Positions 715 through 39,941 of a stretch of 43,011 bases of DNA are shown one piece after another (the first letter of the stretch is position 1; every line of letters begins with the position of its first letter). This stretch comes from a virus. The stretch lies in IMG/VR virus record IMGVR_UViG_3300021168_000051, positions 1-43,011 of that record. The stretch is one strand, 5' to 3'. The position numbers and the translations under genes are program-made. Below the pieces are notes generated by a model. It ran no database searches. It had not been told where the DNA came from and saw only the letters and a list, made by a program, of their open reading frames with translations.

Positions 715-977
715 TATGGCAATGGCTTTGGGATGATTACATGACAAGATTTTACAGGCGTGAGTGCGCGCCGCCGGTCAAGTAATGACGGCGCAGGAAA
801 CGCGCCAGATTCTCGGATAAATATATCCCATTCTGTCTGATATAGCCGAATTAAATCCCCTGCCCTAAATGGTCGTGGTCCCTCAAATCGGCGCCAGTCT
901 GGTTGAGCATTAACGTACGCAATTTCCTGCGGCGTAGAAAGCTGGTGTTCCCAAAGCCCATTACGTAGCTGCGGCAC
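714..977 (-). CDS. Hypothetical protein (87 aa)
   Basis: I chose the GTG at 977 because AAGGAG lies seven bases upstream; the frame is also open from a GTG at 1007 that has no such site. With this start the gene overlaps the end of the sigma-like gene by 17 bases. The protein has a hydrophilic, mixed composition with the segment RPFRAGDLIRLYQTEWDIF and resembles no family I can name. It immediately follows the sigma-like gene, whose region-4 equivalent seems truncated, so it could be a partner protein, but that is speculative. Confidence 0.6.
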   Translation of the reverse strand: MPQLRNGLWEHQLSTPQEIAYVNAQPDWRRFEGPRPFRAGDLIRLYQTEWDIFIRESGAFPAPSLLDRRRALTPVKSCHVIIPKPLP

Positions 978-1575
978 GGCCAAGCTCCTTCGCTGTACGC
1001 TTATCACGCGCCTTAGTTAGCTCTGCTGCGGTATGCTTCCCGCTCGGCGCTGCGGGCTTCTCAAGCGATTCTAGCGCTAGCTCAACTGCCTCAAGCCGGA
1101 TTAGCTCATTTAGGGGATCACCTAGGCCTATAGGCCTATACTCCGTCGATTCTGAGACTTCTAGCGCATCGTCCTCCCCAGAATCGGAATCTTGAAAGGC
1201 TAGCGGCCTATCCAAGTCTGCCGAGTAGCTTCCCATGCCGCCGTTCTGTACTGCCGCTAGGTAGCGGCGTATGCGCCTACGGAAAGTAACGGCGGCGTAT
1301 CCTGAGAACTTAGCAGGGGCTACGTTAATAATCGTTCGCATGTCCTCCGTGCATTCCTGCGCCGCATCAATAAAATCAGAATCATCAGCGTTACGGAATT
1401 CATTGGAGTTTCGCACGTCCGCAGCTATATACGCTGCGATGCGATGCATGAAAAGCAATAGCGGCTCATAGTCCGCATGCTCTAGATAGTCGCGTATCTC
1501 TAAATCCGTGAGGATCGGTGAACAATTCCGCGCAGCTTTAGTAAATGCCGCGAATGAGTATGAATCGGTTGTCAT
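961..1575 (-). CDS. Possible sigma70 region 2-like protein (204 aa)
   Basis: Residues from about 36 to 107 follow the layout of sigma70 region 2: a helix beginning EPLLLFMHRI, then an acidic stretch resembling the DLxQE core-binding segment (DDSDFIDAAQE), then a segment like the FDPxxGxxFxxYA motif (APAKFSGYAAVTFRRRIRRYL). It continues with the usual linker pattern (SADLDRPL, then an acidic run) and a helix resembling the start of region 4 (DPLNELIRLEAVELALESL). The region-4 helix-turn-helix is not complete: the chain ends at TAKELGRAAAT. If correct, the protein would bind host RNA polymerase, which would fit the absence of a phage polymerase. The start ATG overlaps the stop of the 37-aa membrane gene (CTATGA). 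A coincidental helical resemblance cannot be excluded. Confidence 0.4.
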   Translation of the reverse strand: MTTDSYSFAAFTKAARNCSPILTDLEIRDYLEHADYEPLLLFMHRIAAYIAADVRNSNEFRNADDSDFIDAAQECTEDMRTIINVAPAKFSGYAAVTFRRRIRRYLAAVQNGGMGSYSADLDRPLAFQDSDSGEDDALEVSESTEYRPIGLGDPLNELIRLEAVELALESLEKPAAPSGKHTAAELTKARDKRTAKELGRAAAT

Positions 1576-1685
1576 AGTAAATCCCCTAAGAAACGTAGCA
1601 CAAATCCAACCGCAATGAGTGCTACTAGGCGCAGAACTAAGAGCGCAATGAAGTAGGGCTTTTCGGAGTAATCCTGCCTACCCAT
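1572..1685 (-). CDS. Very small membrane protein (37 aa)
   Basis: This 37-residue reading frame starts with an ATG inside the end of the glutamine amidotransferase gene (GATGGGTAG) and ends in the ATGA that starts the sigma-like gene, so it is coupled on both sides. About 20 hydrophobic residues (from IALLVLRLVAL to VGFVL) form one predicted transmembrane helix, with a polar N-terminus (MGRQDYSEKP) and a short C-terminus. It fills exactly what would otherwise be a 100-base gap in an operon without gaps, which is the main evidence that it is real. Function unknown. Confidence 0.55.
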   Translation of the reverse strand: MGRQDYSEKPYFIALLVLRLVALIAVGFVLRFLGDLL

Positions 1686-2940
1686 CAAGGGTACCTGTAT
1701 TCAATTCGCTCCATCCCGGGAGCAGGTCGCCGCGTGAGGCATCCTCTCGCAGGGAGTGTTGCGACGCGGAATTCCCGGTTACATCAATTTCCGCTTCAGC
1801 ATATCCTCCGTCATCGTCTACGCGAATTAGATGTGCACGCAATGCCGCGTCTAGTTGTTCGTCTTGATCTTTGCGCGTTTGATCTGTAGTGTCGTCCGCT
1901 GTTGTATCGTCCGTGTCGTTTAAACGCACACCAGAATCTACACCAGGAAGCGCACCAGCTAGCACTTGTAGCGGCGTAGGCGTAGGCGTGCGATTGTGCG
2001 TCAGACGCAAGGGCTGCCGCGCTGTGCGCCGTCCGGCTAACGTGCGGGGGTCAGGTATCCCTTCGCCGTAGCGCCGATCTAATGCCTTCCTGAGAGATTC
2101 TGAGACAATTGACGTAGGGACGCGCTCGTGAGCGTTCGTAGGAACCTTGTCCTTGTCATCTTGTGTGCGTTGCCGTTCTCTAACCTTGTCATACCAGGTT
2201 GAGTCGCGATTTACCCATGAACGGGAATCACCTACGTCGTCGCGACGACCGTCCGCAGTTTTATCACGGGCTCTTTCCGTTGTGCATGTCACACAGGAAC
2301 AATCCAAGACGTGATAAGGCCAATGACGGTTACGCTCAACCGGCGTATGGTAATCCCGGCGCGGATAATAGCCTGTGCTCTCGCCGTACCATACCTTCGG
2401 CGTAGTGCTCGGCAAGGAATAGGTCTGGGAGTACCAAATACCATCACGGTAAGTTCCCGCTTCACCATGTACCAGGATGAATTTAAAGTCATGCGTCATT
2501 ATGCAAAGCTTGTTATTCCAGCCTATGTGTCGCGCCACGCCACACCAATAATCCATATTGTTATCTTCTGGAACATCCGTCAGATACTCATTCACGAACG
2601 CACCAGTGTCGGAGCAATCCTTAGTAGCCTTTGATGTGTAGTCGCTTAAGACTCCATTATGCATGACATACGCGCGGCCATCCGCCGTCTTGAAGGGATG
2701 GCAATTCTGTAAGATGACGTCGCCGTGTGTCTTGTAGCGGAAATGTATCGCGTATTCGATCTTAGCTTCCTCAAGCTTCGCGACAGTTTTAATAGCCTTT
2801 TTCAAGGCCTTTTTCCCTAAAAATTTGCAAATACCCTCCCGAGACATGATGCCGATACCGTCATCATTCGCGAAATGCGCAGCGCGCATATTGTCAAGGG
2901 GGAGAGACTTACCAGCAGGAACGTACGCGATCAAACACAT
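1678..2940 (-). CDS. Class II glutamine amidotransferase-like Ntn hydrolase
   Basis: The chain begins Met-Cys, so removal of Met would expose the catalytic Cys2 typical of class II glutamine amidotransferases. Further signature segments are HFRYKTHG at 66-73, NCHPF at 79-83, MHNG at 93-96 and SDTGAFV at 110-116, matching the HxRYATxG, NAxPF, HNG and SDTE regions of the fold. These enzymes release ammonia from glutamine for a partner domain. The C-terminal half (about residues 200-420) is low complexity and charged, with a CSCVTC cluster near 216-221, and no recognisable partner domain. The upstream neighbour two bases away is an amidoligase, a natural user of ammonia or amide chemistry. Total length 420 aa; start ATG is unambiguous because Cys2 must follow it. 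Confidence 0.8.
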   Translation of the reverse strand: MCLIAYVPAGKSLPLDNMRAAHFANDDGIGIMSREGICKFLGKKALKKAIKTVAKLEEAKIEYAIHFRYKTHGDVILQNCHPFKTADGRAYVMHNGVLSDYTSKATKDCSDTGAFVNEYLTDVPEDNNMDYWCGVARHIGWNNKLCIMTHDFKFILVHGEAGTYRDGIWYSQTYSLPSTTPKVWYGESTGYYPRRDYHTPVERNRHWPYHVLDCSCVTCTTERARDKTADGRRDDVGDSRSWVNRDSTWYDKVRERQRTQDDKDKVPTNAHERVPTSIVSESLRKALDRRYGEGIPDPRTLAGRRTARQPLRLTHNRTPTPTPLQVLAGALPGVDSGVRLNDTDDTTADDTTDQTRKDQDEQLDAALRAHLIRVDDDGGYAEAEIDVTGNSASQHSLREDASRGDLLPGWSELNTGTLDG

Positions 2941-2942
2941 GG

Positions 2943-4427
2943 CTAGATTTCCTCAACGATTTGAATTTGTTTAGAACCTTTGCGAATCGCAATAGTGTCT
3001 TTCTCACGAAGAAACGCGAGTAAATGCGGGTAGAGTTTTCCATTCTCTACAATGAACTTTAGATAAGGCTCATATTGCGTGCAATCCCGCGCGCCGATTG
3101 TCTCGACATAGCGGATCACCGAATGACAAAACTCGATGTTTTTCAAGACGCGATCGAAACGAAGATTGCCGCGAAATATACGAAATTCTATTGTCTCAGT
3201 CGATAGATGCATAGCTTCATATTTTGCAGTCGATTGCATGCGTCCATCAGCAAGTTTCTTCGGTCGCAGATTCGTGTAGGAGTTGGATGCGCGCTGTGCT
3301 ATACGCTCGATTAGCGCGCGATTTTTATCCGCATTGACAAAGATCAAGGCCTTACCGAGAGTTAGCGGACTGATTGCAGCGCGGTTGACATGCACGTGCA
3401 TTCCACAATTGGTTGTATGCTTACCTGCACATCCGCCCGCAGCAATTGCCGGGCGTAAAACTTCTTTCCAGTCAAACGTATGCTGATGATAATCCAGCGT
3501 GTACGGCCTCGTTATTAGCTCAATACCGGATGCATTCAGCGAACCATCCCGCGCTAGGACGTAGCGGTTTTTAGGATCATCTAGCCGCCCATTCAGCGCT
3601 GCGGAAAGCTTCATTCCTCCGACGATACTAGAATCTTTGGCATTTTCCATTTCAAGCTCTACGCCGAAACAAAATGAATCCCTCGGGGTTATCTCCGGCC
3701 AGCCGAATAGAAGTATATTATTTACTTCATGATAGCCGAAAATATGCGCTCCAGCGGAGGACTGTTGGCGATACGCCGCCAAGTTATTTTGAGTTTCGCG
3801 TCTAATCCTAATCTCGTAATTGTGGGCTGCTGCGGCCTCGCGGAACCAGCGGCCATTTGATACCTGGTTGCAGTGACGTGTAGCGAACGCAGGAGAGACA
3901 TATTCGCTTATATCGACAAGCATAATTGCTGTCGCTGTGGGAATCCAGCGCAAACGTCTAACACGTCCGTGTTGTGAGGCAGGCAATTCCCCCGACGGAT
4001 TATCCATATTGAAGCGGACGAAATAGTGACGGCGATCCGCGCATGACTTGCATAGCCTATCAAGCGACGCACCATTCCATATAGAGGGACTTTCTAGTTT
4101 CCCCACTTGCCTATAGGACAGCGATAGCGTTGAGTGACACGCCGCACAAATAAAAGTTTTCTTAGTATTCATAGAATCTTCATCCTCAGTATCTGTGTGT
4201 AGGTAGTCATCCGGGTCTGTGATCGGCTCGGCGTGCCAGGCGCGCCATTGCTCTAGTGTTATTCGCCGCTCGTGAACTAATGTATTGATCGGCCTGCAAT
4301 GCTCCGCGCAATTGCAAACGGTAATGCCCTCCCAGTACCATTCCTGCGTGAAACCACCGGCATAATGCCGGTTTCCTGGCGGTCTCGGAACTAATAAGAG
4401 GGGATGAATATAATACGAGGCGGGCAT
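2943..4427 (-). CDS. Amidoligase (COOH-NH2 ligase fold, PF12224-type)
   Basis: The C-terminal half carries the marks of the putative amidoligase family: FGVELEME at 254-261, a DGS loop at 294-296, CGMHVHVN at 341-348 and ETIEFRIFRG at 411-420. These supply the acidic and histidine residues of a glutamine synthetase-like ATP-dependent ligase that forms amide or peptide bonds. The N-terminal 140 residues are a separate region with a likely zinc ribbon (CAAC at 94-97, CKSC at 126-129) and a second Cys/His cluster (CNCAEHC, 38-44). ATG overlaps the stop of the JAB gene (TAATG), and the glutamine amidotransferase follows directly. Substrate is unknown: a cell-wall peptide, a small peptide tag or a metabolite are all possible. 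Confidence 0.82.
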   Translation of the reverse strand: MPASYYIHPLLLVPRPPGNRHYAGGFTQEWYWEGITVCNCAEHCRPINTLVHERRITLEQWRAWHAEPITDPDDYLHTDTEDEDSMNTKKTFICAACHSTLSLSYRQVGKLESPSIWNGASLDRLCKSCADRRHYFVRFNMDNPSGELPASQHGRVRRLRWIPTATAIMLVDISEYVSPAFATRHCNQVSNGRWFREAAAAHNYEIRIRRETQNNLAAYRQQSSAGAHIFGYHEVNNILLFGWPEITPRDSFCFGVELEMENAKDSSIVGGMKLSAALNGRLDDPKNRYVLARDGSLNASGIELITRPYTLDYHQHTFDWKEVLRPAIAAGGCAGKHTTNCGMHVHVNRAAISPLTLGKALIFVNADKNRALIERIAQRASNSYTNLRPKKLADGRMQSTAKYEAMHLSTETIEFRIFRGNLRFDRVLKNIEFCHSVIRYVETIGARDCTQYEPYLKFIVENGKLYPHLLAFLREKDTIAIRKGSKQIQIVEEI

Positions 4428-4885
4428 TAGGACTTACTCCCACTCGTAGAGACATTAGCGGACGTGCTTAGTGTCCGTCCTGTAGGACGATACACGCGCA
4501 TTTCTTGAAGTCTTGAGACGTAGATATAGCTCATTACACGTAACCGTTCGGCTATTCGTACGTCAGTATCGGAAAAGGAATCTGCGTTCGGGTCTTTACC
4601 GGGATGCGTGTGGAATAGTGCTATGAGCTTGTCGCCGTTTAAACGTATCGTGAATTGGATTGTGTTCGCCGTCCCAATGGATACAGGCAATATCCGATAA
4701 GTGCCGTCAGCAGCTTGCAGGACTGCCGTCCCGCATTCAAGTTTGAGATACGTAGCTTTCTGCCTGCAATCAAAGAGCGCAGCTTGTAGCGCCGCGTAAG
4801 GGGTTTCATGAGATGATGCAATCAGCGCGAATAGCAGCGCGTAAAAGCAGCAAGACACAAGGAATACAGTTTTCCAGAATTTCAT
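4427..4885 (-). CDS. Membrane-anchored JAB/MPN-type putative isopeptidase
   Basis: Residues 6-24 are strongly hydrophobic and form a signal anchor or signal peptide. The remainder shows the JAMM zinc-peptidase pattern: a Glu (E50, in LECG), then HTHP (H92, H94) and, ten residues after the second His, SDTD (S105, D108). The spacing is longer than the canonical HxHx7SxxD but similar to secreted JAB relatives. Such enzymes cut isopeptide or peptide bonds. It is coupled to the amidoligase (TAATG overlap) and, upstream, to a 47-aa gene (ATGA overlap). Location beyond the membrane would suggest an envelope or periplasmic substrate. Family assignment is by motif only. Confidence 0.68.
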   Translation of the reverse strand: MKFWKTVFLVSCCFYALLFALIASSHETPYAALQAALFDCRQKATYLKLECGTAVLQAADGTYRILPVSIGTANTIQFTIRLNGDKLIALFHTHPGKDPNADSFSDTDVRIAERLRVMSYIYVSRLQEMRVYRPTGRTLSTSANVSTSGSKS

Positions 4886-5470: not shown

Positions 5471-5655
5471 TACGTACACTCCACTGTGATTGAGAGATAA
5501 TCCTCACCGATGAAGTCTAGCGCGAACTTAGTCGCGTCTTTCAGATTGTAGGCATACACAGTATGTTCCAATGCTGTGCCGTCAGACTTCGTGACAGTCA
5601 CTAGGAAAGGGCACTTTCGTGCCCGCTCTATAGGGATGATTTGTGCCTTATTCAT
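5470..5655 (-). CDS. Small hypothetical protein (61 aa)
   Basis: The ATG at 5655 overlaps the end of the SprT-like gene by eight bases, so the longer open frame to 5733 is not used. The 61-residue protein reads MNKAQIIPIERARKCPFLVT and continues with alternating beta-like segments (HTVYAYNLKDATKFALDFIG, SITVECT). It looks like a small alpha/beta fold of the kind seen in the neighbouring tiny genes; function unknown. Confidence 0.6.
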   Translation of the reverse strand: MNKAQIIPIERARKCPFLVTVTKSDGTALEHTVYAYNLKDATKFALDFIGEDYLSITVECT

Positions 5656-6262
5656 TGTCACTATCCTCCGGCTCTTGAACTTCGCCGAGCATTGGCATTT
5701 CATTACAATAGCATAGCGGTACGCCCTGGTCAAGCCATTTCTGTGTAGTGCGCAGAGTATAGCCGCATTCCTTGCATGATACCTTCACTAGTCTTGTAGA
5801 CTGTTTCTTGCGGCCTATTGATGACATAGCCGCATGTGGATATCGTCCTAAGTCTGAGGACCATACCGCTATCATGTCCATGAGTAAATCATCTGCCTCA
5901 GTAGCTGTCATCTTACCGCGAAGCCCCGCAGCTAGCGCAGCTTTCTGAAATGGCTTCCTATGACCTACTTCAACGCCGACTGCCGCATGTATTGCTTCAT
6001 GTACGAGTGTAGCTAAGACCCCGCTACGTCCGGTGACGTCACTCAATACAGGCGAGATGAATATCTCTGTGAAACCTTCCGCAGACGCAACCGTGTTCCA
6101 ACATTCTCCTATTCTCTTAGAGCCGATGCGACCGCCAGCCAGACCACAACTAACTTTTGTTGTGTCCGGGACGATTACGTCCGCTTTGTCTTTCAGATAT
6201 TGTCTGATGATGGCTAAGGCACAACCTAGCCATTGCTCGCGGGTTTCTAGTGTTGCACTCAT
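5648..6262 (-). CDS. SprT-like zinc metalloprotein
   Basis: Starting at the ATG at 6262, which has GGAG eight bases upstream, the protein has 204 residues. The metalloprotease motif HEAIH lies at 88-92 within a helix (LVHEAIHAAVG), and a zinc-ribbon-like C-terminus carries CKEC and CYC pairs. This is the layout of SprT-like proteins, whose eukaryotic relative Spartan degrades DNA-protein crosslinks; phage copies are common and of unsettled function. It is the second gene of the leftward operon and overlaps both neighbours. A longer open frame upstream (to 6310) conflicts with the 49-aa gene and is rejected. Confidence 0.78.
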   Translation of the reverse strand: MSATLETREQWLGCALAIIRQYLKDKADVIVPDTTKVSCGLAGGRIGSKRIGECWNTVASAEGFTEIFISPVLSDVTGRSGVLATLVHEAIHAAVGVEVGHRKPFQKAALAAGLRGKMTATEADDLLMDMIAVWSSDLGRYPHAAMSSIGRKKQSTRLVKVSCKECGYTLRTTQKWLDQGVPLCYCNEMPMLGEVQEPEDSDNE

Positions 6263-6408
6263 TTGAATATCTCCATTTGTTGGGCGTCTGATAACTCTAC
6301 GATTCGCCATTCATTACCTAAATCCGCTGCGTACGCTTCGGCCAGTTCGCGACTAGCGAACCAGTCCGAACTAAACTCTCCTGTAATTGCACACCATAAG
6401 AATAGCAT
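6259..6408 (-). CDS. First gene of leftward operon, small protein (49 aa)
   Basis: A 49-codon frame from an ATG at 6408 ends in an AAATGA overlap with the SprT-like gene. The product starts MLFLWCAITGEFSSDWFASR and continues ELAEAYAADLGNEWRIVEL, a plausible small alpha/beta protein. The start lies just downstream (leftward) of the AATAGCATGT-GTTTAAAC repeat, whose ATG-containing half overlaps the start codon itself. AGGAG occurs about 12 bases upstream, a long spacing. It is probably the first product of the leftward transcript leaving the control region. Confidence 0.6.
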   Translation of the reverse strand: MLFLWCAITGEFSSDWFASRELAEAYAADLGNEWRIVELSDAQQMEIFK

Positions 6409-6529: not shown

Positions 6530-6632
6530 TGATATCCTCCGTATAACGTTTAGGAGCGGCGATCTAAACATGCCCGCTAGCCTAGCATTGCCTAACTAGA
6601 GATCACCGAACCATTAGATTTTCATACACAGG

Positions 6633-6687
6633 TTATCCACATAATAGAATCAATAACTTAGCTTGTGGATAACTATAGTTATCCACA
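6633..6687. other. Putative replication origin: three DnaA boxes
   Basis: Three perfect copies of the DnaA box TTATCCACA occur within 55 bp: 6633-6641 on plus, 6664-6672 on minus and 6679-6687 on plus. The last two form a perfect 24-bp palindrome (6664-6687). AT-rich DNA suitable for unwinding lies between and beside them. DnaA boxes of this exactness are bound by bacterial DnaA, so host initiator recruitment is the straightforward reading, though a phage protein could use the palindrome. Confidence 0.6.
6646..6660 (+). repeat. 15-bp direct repeat, copy 1
   Basis: AGAATCAATAACTTA occurs here, between DnaA boxes, and again exactly at 7531-7545, just after the three-armed leader element, 885 bp away. 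A 15-base exact repeat in 1.3 kb is unlikely by chance even in AT-rich DNA. Confidence 0.5.
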
Positions 6688-6744
6688 GTTCACTTCATTA
6701 TTGTTAACTCCGCCTCCTACCAATTGCTTGTCAAGTATTATTTG

Positions 6745-6759
6745 TATTGCGATGCAATA
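6745..6759. promoter_or_regulatory. Dyad TATTGC-N3-GCAATA, copy 1
   Basis: A perfect 6-bp inverted repeat with a three-base centre, repeated with a different centre at 7117-7131. Two identical half-site pairs in a noncoding region are the usual appearance of an operator for a dimeric regulator; the regulator is not identified. Confidence 0.4.
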
Positions 6760-6873
6760 ACTGTAGCGACAGTTCTACATTAACTATTCTTAATGTAGCA
6801 TGTCTTGACAGCGTTTACACACGTTATGTGTTGTACTGTACTATATCACTATATCCCCTAATCCCTCCCTGAG

Positions 6874-6890
6874 TGTTACCGTCTGTAACA
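6874..6890. promoter_or_regulatory. Dyad TGTTAC-N5-GTAACA
   Basis: A perfect 6-bp inverted repeat with a five-base centre in the control region. It could be an operator; only one copy is seen, so the support is weak. Confidence 0.25.
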
Positions 6891-7116
6891 TTGGTGCCAG
6901 TCTCTCACATCTTCCATTTGTCAAGTGAAATCTTTTCATCTATGTTATGTCTCATTATCTCTTGACTTGGCTGGACTTAACATAATGTATTTCACAGCTT
7001 AGATCCTAGCCCAGGGGTACCCGGGGGAATGCTTTTTGCGGCTGGCCAGGTACCGAATTCCCTCACCAGAAAATTAAAAAAGTAGTAGCCTGAAAAGTAG
7101 CCTGTTACTTACTTTA

Positions 7117-7131
7117 TATTGCAGCGCAATA
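7117..7131. promoter_or_regulatory. Dyad TATTGC-N3-GCAATA, copy 2
   Basis: Second copy of the dyad found at 6745-6759, with centre AGC instead of GAT. It lies about 107 bases upstream of the sigma70-like promoter and could regulate rightward transcription. Confidence 0.4.
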
Positions 7132-7237
7132 ATATCCCACGTAAATGTACCCTGTGGGATACACTTTCAACTAGAAATTGATCCCTCTAATAGTAGGCAG
7201 ATTACGACTCAAAACTATTTTCTAAATAATTTAATGC

Positions 7238-32614: not shown

Positions 32615-33141
32615 TCCTTCGGCACTTCATGGTGCCAGATAGCTAACTTCCAATTAGGACAGAACTTCTTGAACCACACAGTTATGCTGCCTTTGGTACC
32701 GGAGGCTCTGAAGTCTGTGGCGAATAGGAAACGGAGATCAACATTCGCGTGCGTTTTATAGATACTACGGAAAAGCGAACGTTCACGAGGTCTAAGGTAG
32801 CCCTTAACTTCGACGTAATATCCGACGGCTTTATGTTTACTATCACTGGGAATAACAAATAAGTCCGGAGTATAATGCCTTTGTTGACCAACGTCAGTTC
32901 CTCCGCAACTTGTGCAGGAACCGTTCCGTATGGGACTAGTGTAGGCCAGCGTATTACTTTTCGTTGTACGATAGACTTCGGCGGGAGTTTTCTTGAAGGT
33001 TGCATAGACCTCATACTCGAATTTAGAGTCGAACTCTTCTCCATCTGGCGATAACCATCGTCGGTCAGAGCGCTTAATACCTACTCTTGTGCCCTCCACC
33101 GTAGCGCGCTTAACTCGCTTCTTCGGCCTAGAGATTGGCAT
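32605..33141 (-). CDS. Endonuclease I-like (T7 gp3-type) resolvase
   Basis: The catalytic pattern of T7 endonuclease I is visible: Glu42 in FEYEV, Asp93 in YTPDLFV, then Glu111 and Lys113 in YYVEVKGYL. An additional Cys pair (SCTSCGG, 76-79) occurs between the first two elements. The length of 178 is close to the 149 of T7 gp3. This enzyme cuts branched DNA and can break down host chromosomes. It overlaps the DUF4406 gene by 14 bases. Confidence 0.8.
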   Translation of the reverse strand: MPISRPKKRVKRATVEGTRVGIKRSDRRWLSPDGEEFDSKFEYEVYATFKKTPAEVYRTTKSNTLAYTSPIRNGSCTSCGGTDVGQQRHYTPDLFVIPSDSKHKAVGYYVEVKGYLRPRERSLFRSIYKTHANVDLRFLFATDFRASGTKGSITVWFKKFCPNWKLAIWHHEVPKEWK

Positions 33142-33541
33142 ACAACACGTCTTTTACCCATTCTCGGCTCAGTTCTGTGATACCTGCTCCGGTATGGTAC
33201 TCATATATCGGCTTGCCTGTGAGTAGGGCTACAATGACTTCAAGCTTAGCTCCGCGTGACCTCTGCCAGTTAGGCAACAACGCAACCCCGTCTACAAGAT
33301 CAGCGACAATCTTTACATCGCGGGCTAATATATCTGCCCAAGTCTCTCCACCGATCTTGCCGTTGACCATCTTTCCGTCTTTACTGGCGAGTGCTTCCTT
33401 CTTGATAGTATCACTATCTTCTTCTGCTGGACTTATAATATTCATACCTTGTGCGCGAAGCGTCGCCGCTGCTTCCGTAAATGCTGGAATATTGTACTGC
33501 GGGATATTGGACATCGGCCCCGCTATATATAACTTAGCCAC
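33128..33541 (-). CDS. DUF4406 / nucleoside deoxyribosyltransferase-like protein
   Basis: Begins MAKLYIAGPMSNIPQYNIPA, the hallmark of DUF4406 phage proteins, followed by AAATLRAQGMNIISPAEE and VALLPNWQRSRGAKLEVIVA, where the SRGAxxE segment carries the likely catalytic Glu. These proteins are relatives of nucleoside 2-deoxyribosyltransferases and may act on nucleotides. The neighbours are DNA-metabolism genes. Confidence 0.78.
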   Translation of the reverse strand: MAKLYIAGPMSNIPQYNIPAFTEAAATLRAQGMNIISPAEEDSDTIKKEALASKDGKMVNGKIGGETWADILARDVKIVADLVDGVALLPNWQRSRGAKLEVIVALLTGKPIYEYHTGAGITELSREWVKDVLYANL

Positions 33542-38339: not shown

Positions 38340-38721
38340 TCTGATACTCCGTATATTGCTGTTTAATAATCTCTACGAGCTTAGGTGCGCGTCGTTGATA
38401 AATGTCTGGGACACTCAGCGTCACTATCGGCGTATTACCGATGTCTATTTGGTTACGGCTAATAAAATTATCGAGATACGTCTTAATCCCCGGCTCGACA
38501 CATACAATCTCGTCTGCCCATTTAAGTAGAAACTCGTCTACTACGATTAGCGCGTAATCGTCTACGACGCCTGCTGCGCGAGTATTATAGTTCCACGGAT
38601 CATTCGAGAGTACCCACGCTACTGTAGGGGATCGAAGTAACCCTGCTGAACACAGCGCTAACACGCGCTTATCCGGTCCTTGATAAGGATTACCTATATT
38701 GTAGAGACGGTTGAAGCTCAC
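38272..38721 (-). CDS. Low-molecular-weight protein tyrosine phosphatase-like (COG4551 type)
   Basis: The P-loop of cysteine phosphatases is present: VLALCSAGLLRSPTVAWVL with Cys24 and Arg30 in the CX5RS arrangement. It is followed by NTRAAGVVDDYALIVV and LLKWADEIVCVEP, as in COG4551 proteins. It would remove phosphate from protein tyrosine or a small molecule. Starting GTG overlaps the helicase stop (GTGA). A phosphatase inside the replication operon may act on host regulators. Confidence 0.7.
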   Translation of the reverse strand: MSFNRLYNIGNPYQGPDKRVLALCSAGLLRSPTVAWVLSNDPWNYNTRAAGVVDDYALIVVDEFLLKWADEIVCVEPGIKTYLDNFISRNQIDIGNTPIVTLSVPDIYQRRAPKLVEIIKQQYTEYQNGTADLHTGTGAGNSEATEEGT

Positions 38722-39941
38722 GTAGTGTCCTCCACTCTGTTCAGTTCTAAATTGAATCGCACGAGCAACGGCTCTCGTGACTTTCCGCCTGTGGCTAGCT
38801 TGTTCTTAGCAAAGCTAAGCATTCGCAGACCTCGCGCCCGCATTTCTGTCGATGCGCCTATACCAATTTGCAAATCAACAGTGCCAGGTAAACCAACTCG
38901 GCTAGAATCAACATCACCAGCGGAAAGATATATAGGCCCATCTGAATTATGTCCTTGACTTCTATCACCCGCCTGAGTAACGCTGATACCGATGATCTTT
39001 TGACGGCCTAACAATGACCTGAAACGTATAGCATTGTGTTCCATCTTCTGAGTCATGCCGTCCTCGGCTCCACTCAAGTTCCGTATCTGATCCAAAATGA
39101 TGATATTCGGAGAATGTTTCGCCGTCAGATCCTCGACCTCCGAAATAGAACCAGGGTGAATATGGACCATTGTCAAACGTTCTCCGCACAATTCTGTGAG
39201 GAGGCGCTTCGCCTTGTTCGGATGCGCATCTATCCAACTCTGTGGTTGCCCGAGCAGCGAGAGTCGCACTCTGCTCTTCAATATATTTATTGAGTCCTCG
39301 TTCCCCACATATAGTACGGTCTTTCCAGAACGTATTAAATTCGCTGTCGTCGATACTGTCAGACATGATTTTCCGATTTCCGTACGGCCAAATATGAGAA
39401 TATGATGCCCAGGTAGAGCCCCCCCACCAATCCTAGAATCCAAGGACGCGGGTCCCACACTAACCCGATTAGCAGCACCGATGGTGCTGTCAAGAGTATC
39501 CCAGTCTTTAGCATATTCAACATCCGATTTAGCATCTAAGTCTACTTGTTCCCATACGGCATTAAGCTGCGTAAGAAGTTCACTAGCTTTGTTATGATCC
39601 TTAGAAGAAGTAGCGGAGGCAAACTCAAGAGCGAGATTAGACCGGCGTAGATCAAGGACAAGCTCAACAACATTCGGGCTAGATACGGGCTTAAGATCAT
39701 CGAGCGTCGAGAGTATGGCATCGGCATGCTTAGGATTGGTGATCCTTCGAGCACCCAACTCTCTGAGAGTGTCAACTCGTATGTCTGCCGCAGTTTTGTC
39801 GCGCTCATAGTAGTCACGTACCAGTTCATACCAAAAGGCGACAGAAGGGGATGCTTCCTTAGCATTAAAGTGCTCGCGTATAGAGTCGTACGCGATCCTC
39901 GAAGATATTGTAGCTGCCAGTATTTGCGAGTCGAGTCCCAA
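38718..39941 (-). CDS. Replicative helicase, DnaB/gp4-like RecA fold
   Basis: TTG start. The N-terminal 100 residues resemble the helical DnaB N-domain (SQILAATISSRIAYDSIREH). The RecA-type core has Walker A FGRTEIGKSC (184-193) and Walker B NIIILDQI (279-286), followed by ISVTQAGDRSQG. Total 407 residues. It unwinds DNA ahead of the polymerase; primase is encoded separately at 41108-41983, unlike the fused T7 gp4. The Tat-signal gene overlaps its start by 77 bases. Confidence 0.85.
   Translation of the reverse strand: MGLDSQILAATISSRIAYDSIREHFNAKEASPSVAFWYELVRDYYERDKTAADIRVDTLRELGARRITNPKHADAILSTLDDLKPVSSPNVVELVLDLRRSNLALEFASATSSKDHNKASELLTQLNAVWEQVDLDAKSDVEYAKDWDTLDSTIGAANRVSVGPASLDSRIGGGALPGHHILIFGRTEIGKSCLTVSTTANLIRSGKTVLYVGNEDSINILKSRVRLSLLGQPQSWIDAHPNKAKRLLTELCGERLTMVHIHPGSISEVEDLTAKHSPNIIILDQIRNLSGAEDGMTQKMEHNAIRFRSLLGRQKIIGISVTQAGDRSQGHNSDGPIYLSAGDVDSSRVGLPGTVDLQIGIGASTEMRARGLRMLSFAKNKLATGGKSREPLLVRFNLELNRVEDTT

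Follow-up and report, generated by a model that had tools for sequence, protein, structure and literature searches.

Several tailed phages are known to carry a long cassette of genes for an amidoligase, a COOH-NH2 ligase, a glutamine amidotransferase, an ATP-grasp protein and a gamma-glutamylcyclotransferase (GGCT), as in LUZ24 gp16-gp22, PSA-HP1 ORF40-47 and phiEco32 (PMC5498523, citing Iyer et al. 2009 and Hardies et al. 2013). This cassette has been named a peptidoglycan modification, and superinfection exclusion has been proposed for it (PMC5498523, PMC10580990, PMC11945000). Here we describe a related locus in the IMG/VR record IMGVR_UViG_3300021168_000051, which is of class virus and was analyzed over its entire 43,011 bases (hereafter the window). 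Three consecutive genes of the window encode a JAB/JAMM-superfamily protein, an amidoligase and a class II glutamine amidotransferase domain (Table 1). We consider it fairly probable that the latter two form a two-protein glutamine-dependent amide synthetase, an early cassette of many short-genome tailed phages that would cap a host carboxyl group on peptidoglycan or a protein in the service of takeover or exclusion, with the JAB protein standing apart from them.

Table 1. Positions in the window of the three genes of the locus.
Gene	Product	Position	Strand	Length	Remarks
1	JAB/JAMM-superfamily protein, accessory gene	4427..4885	-	152 amino acids	N-terminal hydrophobic segment (predicted anchor), about residues 6-24
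2	Amidoligase_2, glutamine-synthetase-fold carboxylate-amine ligase	2943..4427	-	494 amino acids	N-terminal CxxC/CxxC region
3	Class II (N-terminal nucleophile, Ntn, type) glutamine amidotransferase domain	1678..2940	-	420 amino acids	Cys2 after Met; variable tail of ~230 amino acids; without synthase domain

In LUZ24, the amidoligase gp18 is followed immediately by the class II glutaminase-type gp19 in an early unit before the replication genes, as in the window, although gp19, unlike the window glutaminase, carries a GFAT-type annotation. The purpose that the literature predicts for the LUZ24, PSA-HP1 and phiEco32 cassette is also the one proposed here for the window pair. In contrast to that cassette, the window holds the two-gene core only and adds JAB; the ATP-grasp protein, the second COOH-NH2 ligase and the cyclotransferase, all of which we found in the longer cassettes of LUZ24 (directly before the primase/helicase) and StenR_269, are absent among the window genes and neighbors examined. 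In MEP401 and MEP402 (Methylophilales) and ctgrD200 (PMC10580990), the two-gene core likewise occurs adjacent and in the same order, with the pair placed before the primase in MEP401 and MEP402 as it is in the window. Their proteins are 20-32% identical to those of the window, and the whole records contain no JAB. Mycobacterium phage Marvin, which has a mycobacterial host and likewise no JAB, carries an amidoligase-like gene followed by a glutaminase (gp105-gp106), the latter 32% identical to the window glutaminase over 191 amino acids. The window pair belongs to this short two-gene form, as in MEP401 and Marvin, and the amidoligase-glutaminase pair is an already described phage module, carried by many small tailed phages at the front of their early operon. 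The survey suggests the two-gene form as its minimal unit, which would allow a clean two-protein test.

The window also encodes a terminase, a portal, a major head protein, an endolysin, a family A DNA polymerase, a DnaB-like helicase, a primase and an exonuclease; these genes and the length of the record mark a tailed phage comparable in size to T7 or LUZ24. A nucleotide search of the phage collection retrieved no match. The three genes had been predicted in an earlier reading of the letters without database searches (the sequence-only reading), and both their positions on the minus strand and their close coupling proved right: the JAB and amidoligase genes have one base in common (TAATG), and the amidoligase stop is separated from the glutaminase start by a 2-base gap. 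Shine-Dalgarno-like GGAG/GAGG motifs lie 8-10 nucleotides 5' of each of the three starts, and relatives keep these proteins at 30-50% protein identity. Judged from sequence, the three genes are coding beyond chance, since the open reading frames (ORFs) are long and coupled, have ribosome-binding sites, match known families and are conserved in relatives.

To survey the pair, we used 37 viral loci with a related amidoligase, 5 loci reached via the glutaminase (partly the same contigs) and 8 phage records, and adjacency was counted over 32 distinct IMG/VR loci. The glutaminase adjoins the amidoligase in 30 of these 32, and in the remaining 2 the amidoligase meets the contig end. It lies downstream of the amidoligase in 26 loci (with a gap of at most 53 nucleotides in 24) and upstream in 4, and the same pair is found in phages MEP401, MEP402, ctgrD200 and Marvin. 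The joint action of the two enzymes, which the sequence-only reading had proposed, is supported by this adjacency in almost all related phages. In most cases the pair stands first in the early/replication operon, before primase, helicase and DNA polymerase; replication genes near it include a primase in 8 loci (1.5-5 kb downstream of the pair), a helicase in 7 and a polymerase in 8, and apart from these no other gene family was widely recurrent beside the pair in the loci surveyed. Searching the five genes tested against a defense-system library gave no match.

The amidoligase matches Amidoligase_2 (PF12224) with E=2.1e-6 and 28.2 bits, over the cut-off of 22, and this family is also matched at E<=0.001 by 20 of the 24 homologues in the alignment. 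Its structural model is for the most part of high confidence over residues 248-482, and this part resembles YbdK (213 residues, Z 13.3) as well as glutamine synthetases (Z 11-12.6), with the depupylase Dop also matched, so the original call as an amidoligase holds for both family and C-terminal fold. Residues E257, E259, D294, E303, C341, G342, H344, H346, R379, E414 and R416 are invariant in the 24 amidoligases, and those of the GxExE, CGxHxH and ExRxF motifs show little or no variation. The N-terminal zinc ribbon that had been suggested for this protein fared less evenly, as the cysteines concerned (C94, C97, C126 and C129) are invariant in the four nearest relatives and the CxxC...CxxC arrangement is consistent with a zinc ribbon, but the fold of this region is predicted with low confidence. 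A sequence search found the amidoligase no relative of known structure, and a pattern search of bacterial genomes also found no relative, although the patterns were strict and absence is not implied.

On its own, the gene 3 protein falls below the cut-offs of GATase_4 and GATase_6 (E of 5e-4 to 9e-4; 19.4 versus 23 and 19.7 versus 27 bits). Nevertheless, the homology stands, because a profile built from 23 gene 3 homologues recovers the glutaminase domain of GlmS at 3.3e-9; the same profile matches PurF at 2e-4. Residues C2, R68, T71, G73, H81, P82, N95, G96 and D111 are invariant in the 23 glutaminases, which provides the features of class II enzymes, namely a nucleophile Cys after Met, an Arg and an Asp to hold glutamine, and an Asn-Gly oxyanion hole. 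There is no synthase domain, and the last ~230 residues vary. By these sequence comparisons, gene 3 encodes a class II glutaminase domain that stands alone, is related to GlmS and keeps all catalytic residues, in agreement with its first description as a class II glutamine amidotransferase with an exposed Cys2.

The adjacency of the two genes and their intact active sites argue for a partnership of amidoligase and glutaminase, for which we infer the following chemistry. The glutaminase, through its catalytic Cys2, would release ammonia from glutamine, and the amidoligase, with its glutamine-synthetase fold, would use ATP to activate a carboxylate as an acyl phosphate and join it to the ammonia passed on from the glutaminase or to another amine. 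The result, early in infection, would be a host molecule with a capped carboxyl group; an acidic host peptide group, such as the stem peptide of peptidoglycan or part of a host protein, seems the most likely target. The role may be host takeover or superinfection exclusion; because the pair heads the early operon, takeover or the exclusion of rival phages would fit better than virion assembly or lysis.

Several points weigh against an amide synthetase of this kind. Both proteins are without a signal or membrane segment, and if the target belongs to the envelope it must therefore be a precursor in the cytoplasm. No recognized glutaminase lies within 5 kb of the amidoligase in Clostridioides phage AR1086-1 and Microcoleus phage My-WqHQDG. 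Free-standing Ntn glutaminase domains could be peptidases or hydrolases, not ammonia donors. The papers cited here show no substrate for any cassette member, and the cell-wall role given in the literature is itself a prediction from genome context.

Two other functions of the pair were weighed. Its members could be auxiliary metabolic genes that feed host nitrogen or amino-acid metabolism and do not modify a structure, as has been proposed for the Planctomycetes phage ZRK32, the genome of which adds a glutathione synthase and a GGCT and which raised host growth when added with ammonium (PMC10945688). However, the window and its relatives share the ligase-glutaminase pair only, with no recurrent pathway genes, and a glutaminase that spends glutamine offers no obvious nitrogen gain, which leaves a metabolic function improbable in our view. 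A second option is that the pair makes a modification of a DNA base or of a small peptide, in the manner of a ribosomally synthesized and post-translationally modified peptide. Phage DNA hypermodification and peptide lactam formation do use amidotransferases and amide ligases, and the window encodes a nucleoside 2-deoxyribosyltransferase-like protein in its replication region (33128-33541, minus strand; phrog_355, 2e-23). Scanning 25 window proteins, though, revealed no other base-modification gene, and no recurrent small peptide gene lies beside the pair, so that we rate this option lower still than the metabolic one.

The sequence-only reading had further suggested that tiny genes upstream could encode a substrate peptide. 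We rejected these small ORFs for that role since they are not recurrent, a single ORF having a single match (in locus L017 of the survey), and no tag gene was recurrent beside JAB in the loci surveyed.

The distribution of JAB is quite different from that of the pair. Searches with Prok-JAB and DUF4329 found JAB in 1 of the 43 other amidoligase- or glutaminase-bearing records (locus L014), although each of these families misses one of the two known copies (at cut-off or altogether), some records are fragments, and a very divergent JAB may escape. A two-sequence JAB profile and motif scan of the fetched loci, as well as a JAB profile scan of viral contigs, also retrieved L014 only; tblastn for JAB homologues in phages gave none with either copy as query, and scanning viral contigs with one protein alone, either the amidoligase or JAB, gave no relatives. 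The conserved neighborhood that had been expected of all three genes therefore exists for the amidoligase and glutaminase but not for JAB. Trees of both partner proteins place the window as sister to L011 and L014 as sister to L025, with L011 and L025 each having the pair without JAB. The JAB phages being non-sisters in either tree, at least two gains or losses of JAB are needed. JAB is an occasional neighbor and not a fixed third part of the cassette; in the window it is probably co-transcribed with the pair, which elsewhere does without it, and it appears to be a separately gained hydrolase with a predicted membrane anchor.

These results bear on a proposal of the sequence-only reading, in which JAB would remove or process a peptide or amide mark made by the amidoligase and glutaminase, so that all three would form one reversible envelope-modification system. 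Such a system would agree with the translational coupling of the three genes in the window phage, with the conservation of the JAB active-site residues in the L014 homologue (likewise encoded upstream of the pair and on its strand), and with the amidoligase fold, which is that of Dop and PafA, enzymes that add and remove peptide tags. Yet in addition to the rarity of JAB and its absence from the nearest relatives of both carriers, the L014 gene is 1.6 kb from the amidoligase and not adjacent to it, its product has no anchor, and the JAB domain of the window, if anchored N-in, would sit outside the cytoplasm, apart from the two soluble enzymes. Because JAB is not a conserved partner, the write-and-erase idea is unsupported, and the survey corrects the notion that a JAB eraser belongs to the pair; we regard a single reversible system as unlikely. 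A variant that accommodates the anchor, namely a pup/Dop-like cycle outside the cytoplasm in which the pair marks an envelope precursor with an amide or peptide and the anchored JAB removes the mark on the outer face of the membrane, is in our judgment very improbable.

As to the JAB protein itself, it matches Prok-JAB (PF14464) with E=2.7e-7 and 30.9 bits, over the Pfam cut-off of 25, and DUF4329 (PF14220) with E=4e-6, slightly under the Pfam cut-off. The residues first listed for this protein (E50, H92, H94, S105 and D108) were correctly identified and are identical in the sole homologue found, that of L014 (35% identity). The canonical JAMM motif is EXnH[ST]HX7SXXD, with a spacing of 7 (PMC300881), whereas 10 residues separate HxH from SxxD in the window JAB and 14 in L014, with all five residues present. 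Structure prediction, which had been suggested as a check on the JAB and amidoligase calls, gave the expected fold in both cases, although the JAB model is weak (predicted local distance difference test score of 61, built from a two-sequence alignment). The top 50 Foldseek matches of this model are all JAMM/MPN-family chains or complexes containing them, the best being Pyrococcus PfJAMM1 (5ld9; E=1e-3, probability 1.0), and alignment with VIA-align gave Z 8.2-8.8 against the JAMM superfamily (PfJAMM1, Z 8.2). The window JAB shares with Prok-JAB and DUF4329 (Tox-JAB-2) the E, HTH, S and D residues and the fold, and differs by its HxH-SxxD spacing and its N-terminal anchor. That anchor, part of the first description, is predicted for the window copy by its hydrophobic N-terminus (hydropathy 2.28 at residue 6) but is missing from the L014 homologue. 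A search of solved structures with the two JAB sequences yielded chance matches only, and the best NCBIfam match, desampylase, is far under its cut-off (15.6 versus 130 bits). A tail-tip protein like lambda K (PMC1779556) was ruled out by the early-operon location and by a length too short for an NlpC domain.

We would like to note that the label of isopeptidase is not secure for this protein, because DUF4329, which both JAB homologues match, partly overlaps Tox-JAB-2, a group known from toxins and tailed phages for which a nuclease rather than a peptidase activity was proposed (PMC3482391); the hydrolase may not be an isopeptidase, and this too speaks against an eraser. JAB may instead be an effector that acts early and independently, a hydrolase of the DUF4329/Tox-JAB-2 kind (peptidase or nuclease) directed against the host or a competing phage and inserted ahead of the pair, and its sporadic presence fits such accessory cargo. 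Within the window protein, however, Prok-JAB outscores DUF4329. Peptidase-type JAMM proteins, PfJAMM1 among them, head the structure matches, but RadC is listed as well, and therefore the fold does not decide between nuclease and peptidase; a membrane anchor would also be unusual in a nuclease with cytoplasmic DNA as its target. We regard an independent effector as a serious candidate, if somewhat short of an even chance; as it concerns JAB alone, it is compatible with the pair being an amide synthetase.

Other genes flank the locus. Upstream of the JAB gene, the window encodes a SprT-like zinc-peptidase-like protein with an HExxH motif (5648-6310, minus strand; phrog_6361, 5e-38; Pfam SprT-like below cut-off), and L034 has a homologue (6549-7229; 8e-36) immediately upstream of its amidoligase. 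Downstream of the glutaminase lies a gene for a 204-amino-acid protein (961-1575, minus strand) with similarly placed homologues in L011, L017 and L018. At this same place, L014, L021 and L025 have a short protein with a sigma-region-2-like stretch (e.g. DYEDLAQEG), which makes a phage sigma-like factor downstream of the glutaminase possible.

Elsewhere in the window, a 133-amino-acid ORF (38965-39366, minus strand) lies in another frame inside the helicase gene (38718-39941). Mutually similar out-of-frame ORFs occur at the same place of the helicase in L011, L017 and L018, and the ORF is probably a shadow of conserved helicase codons. Lastly, the palindrome GTTTAAAC occurs at 12 sites (625, 1918, 4637, 5001, 6413, 6462, 20287, 25105, 36639, 36699, 41338 and 41965), half of them within the first 6.5 kb, against 0.6 copies expected; 12 copies were reached in 0 of 100 shuffles, and the second-commonest 8-base palindrome of the window has 5 copies. 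The palindrome is also frequent in L011/L019 and L028 (7 copies in 10.7 kb and 5 copies in 11.4 kb, respectively), with none in most other loci, and may serve this phage group as a regulator or partition site.

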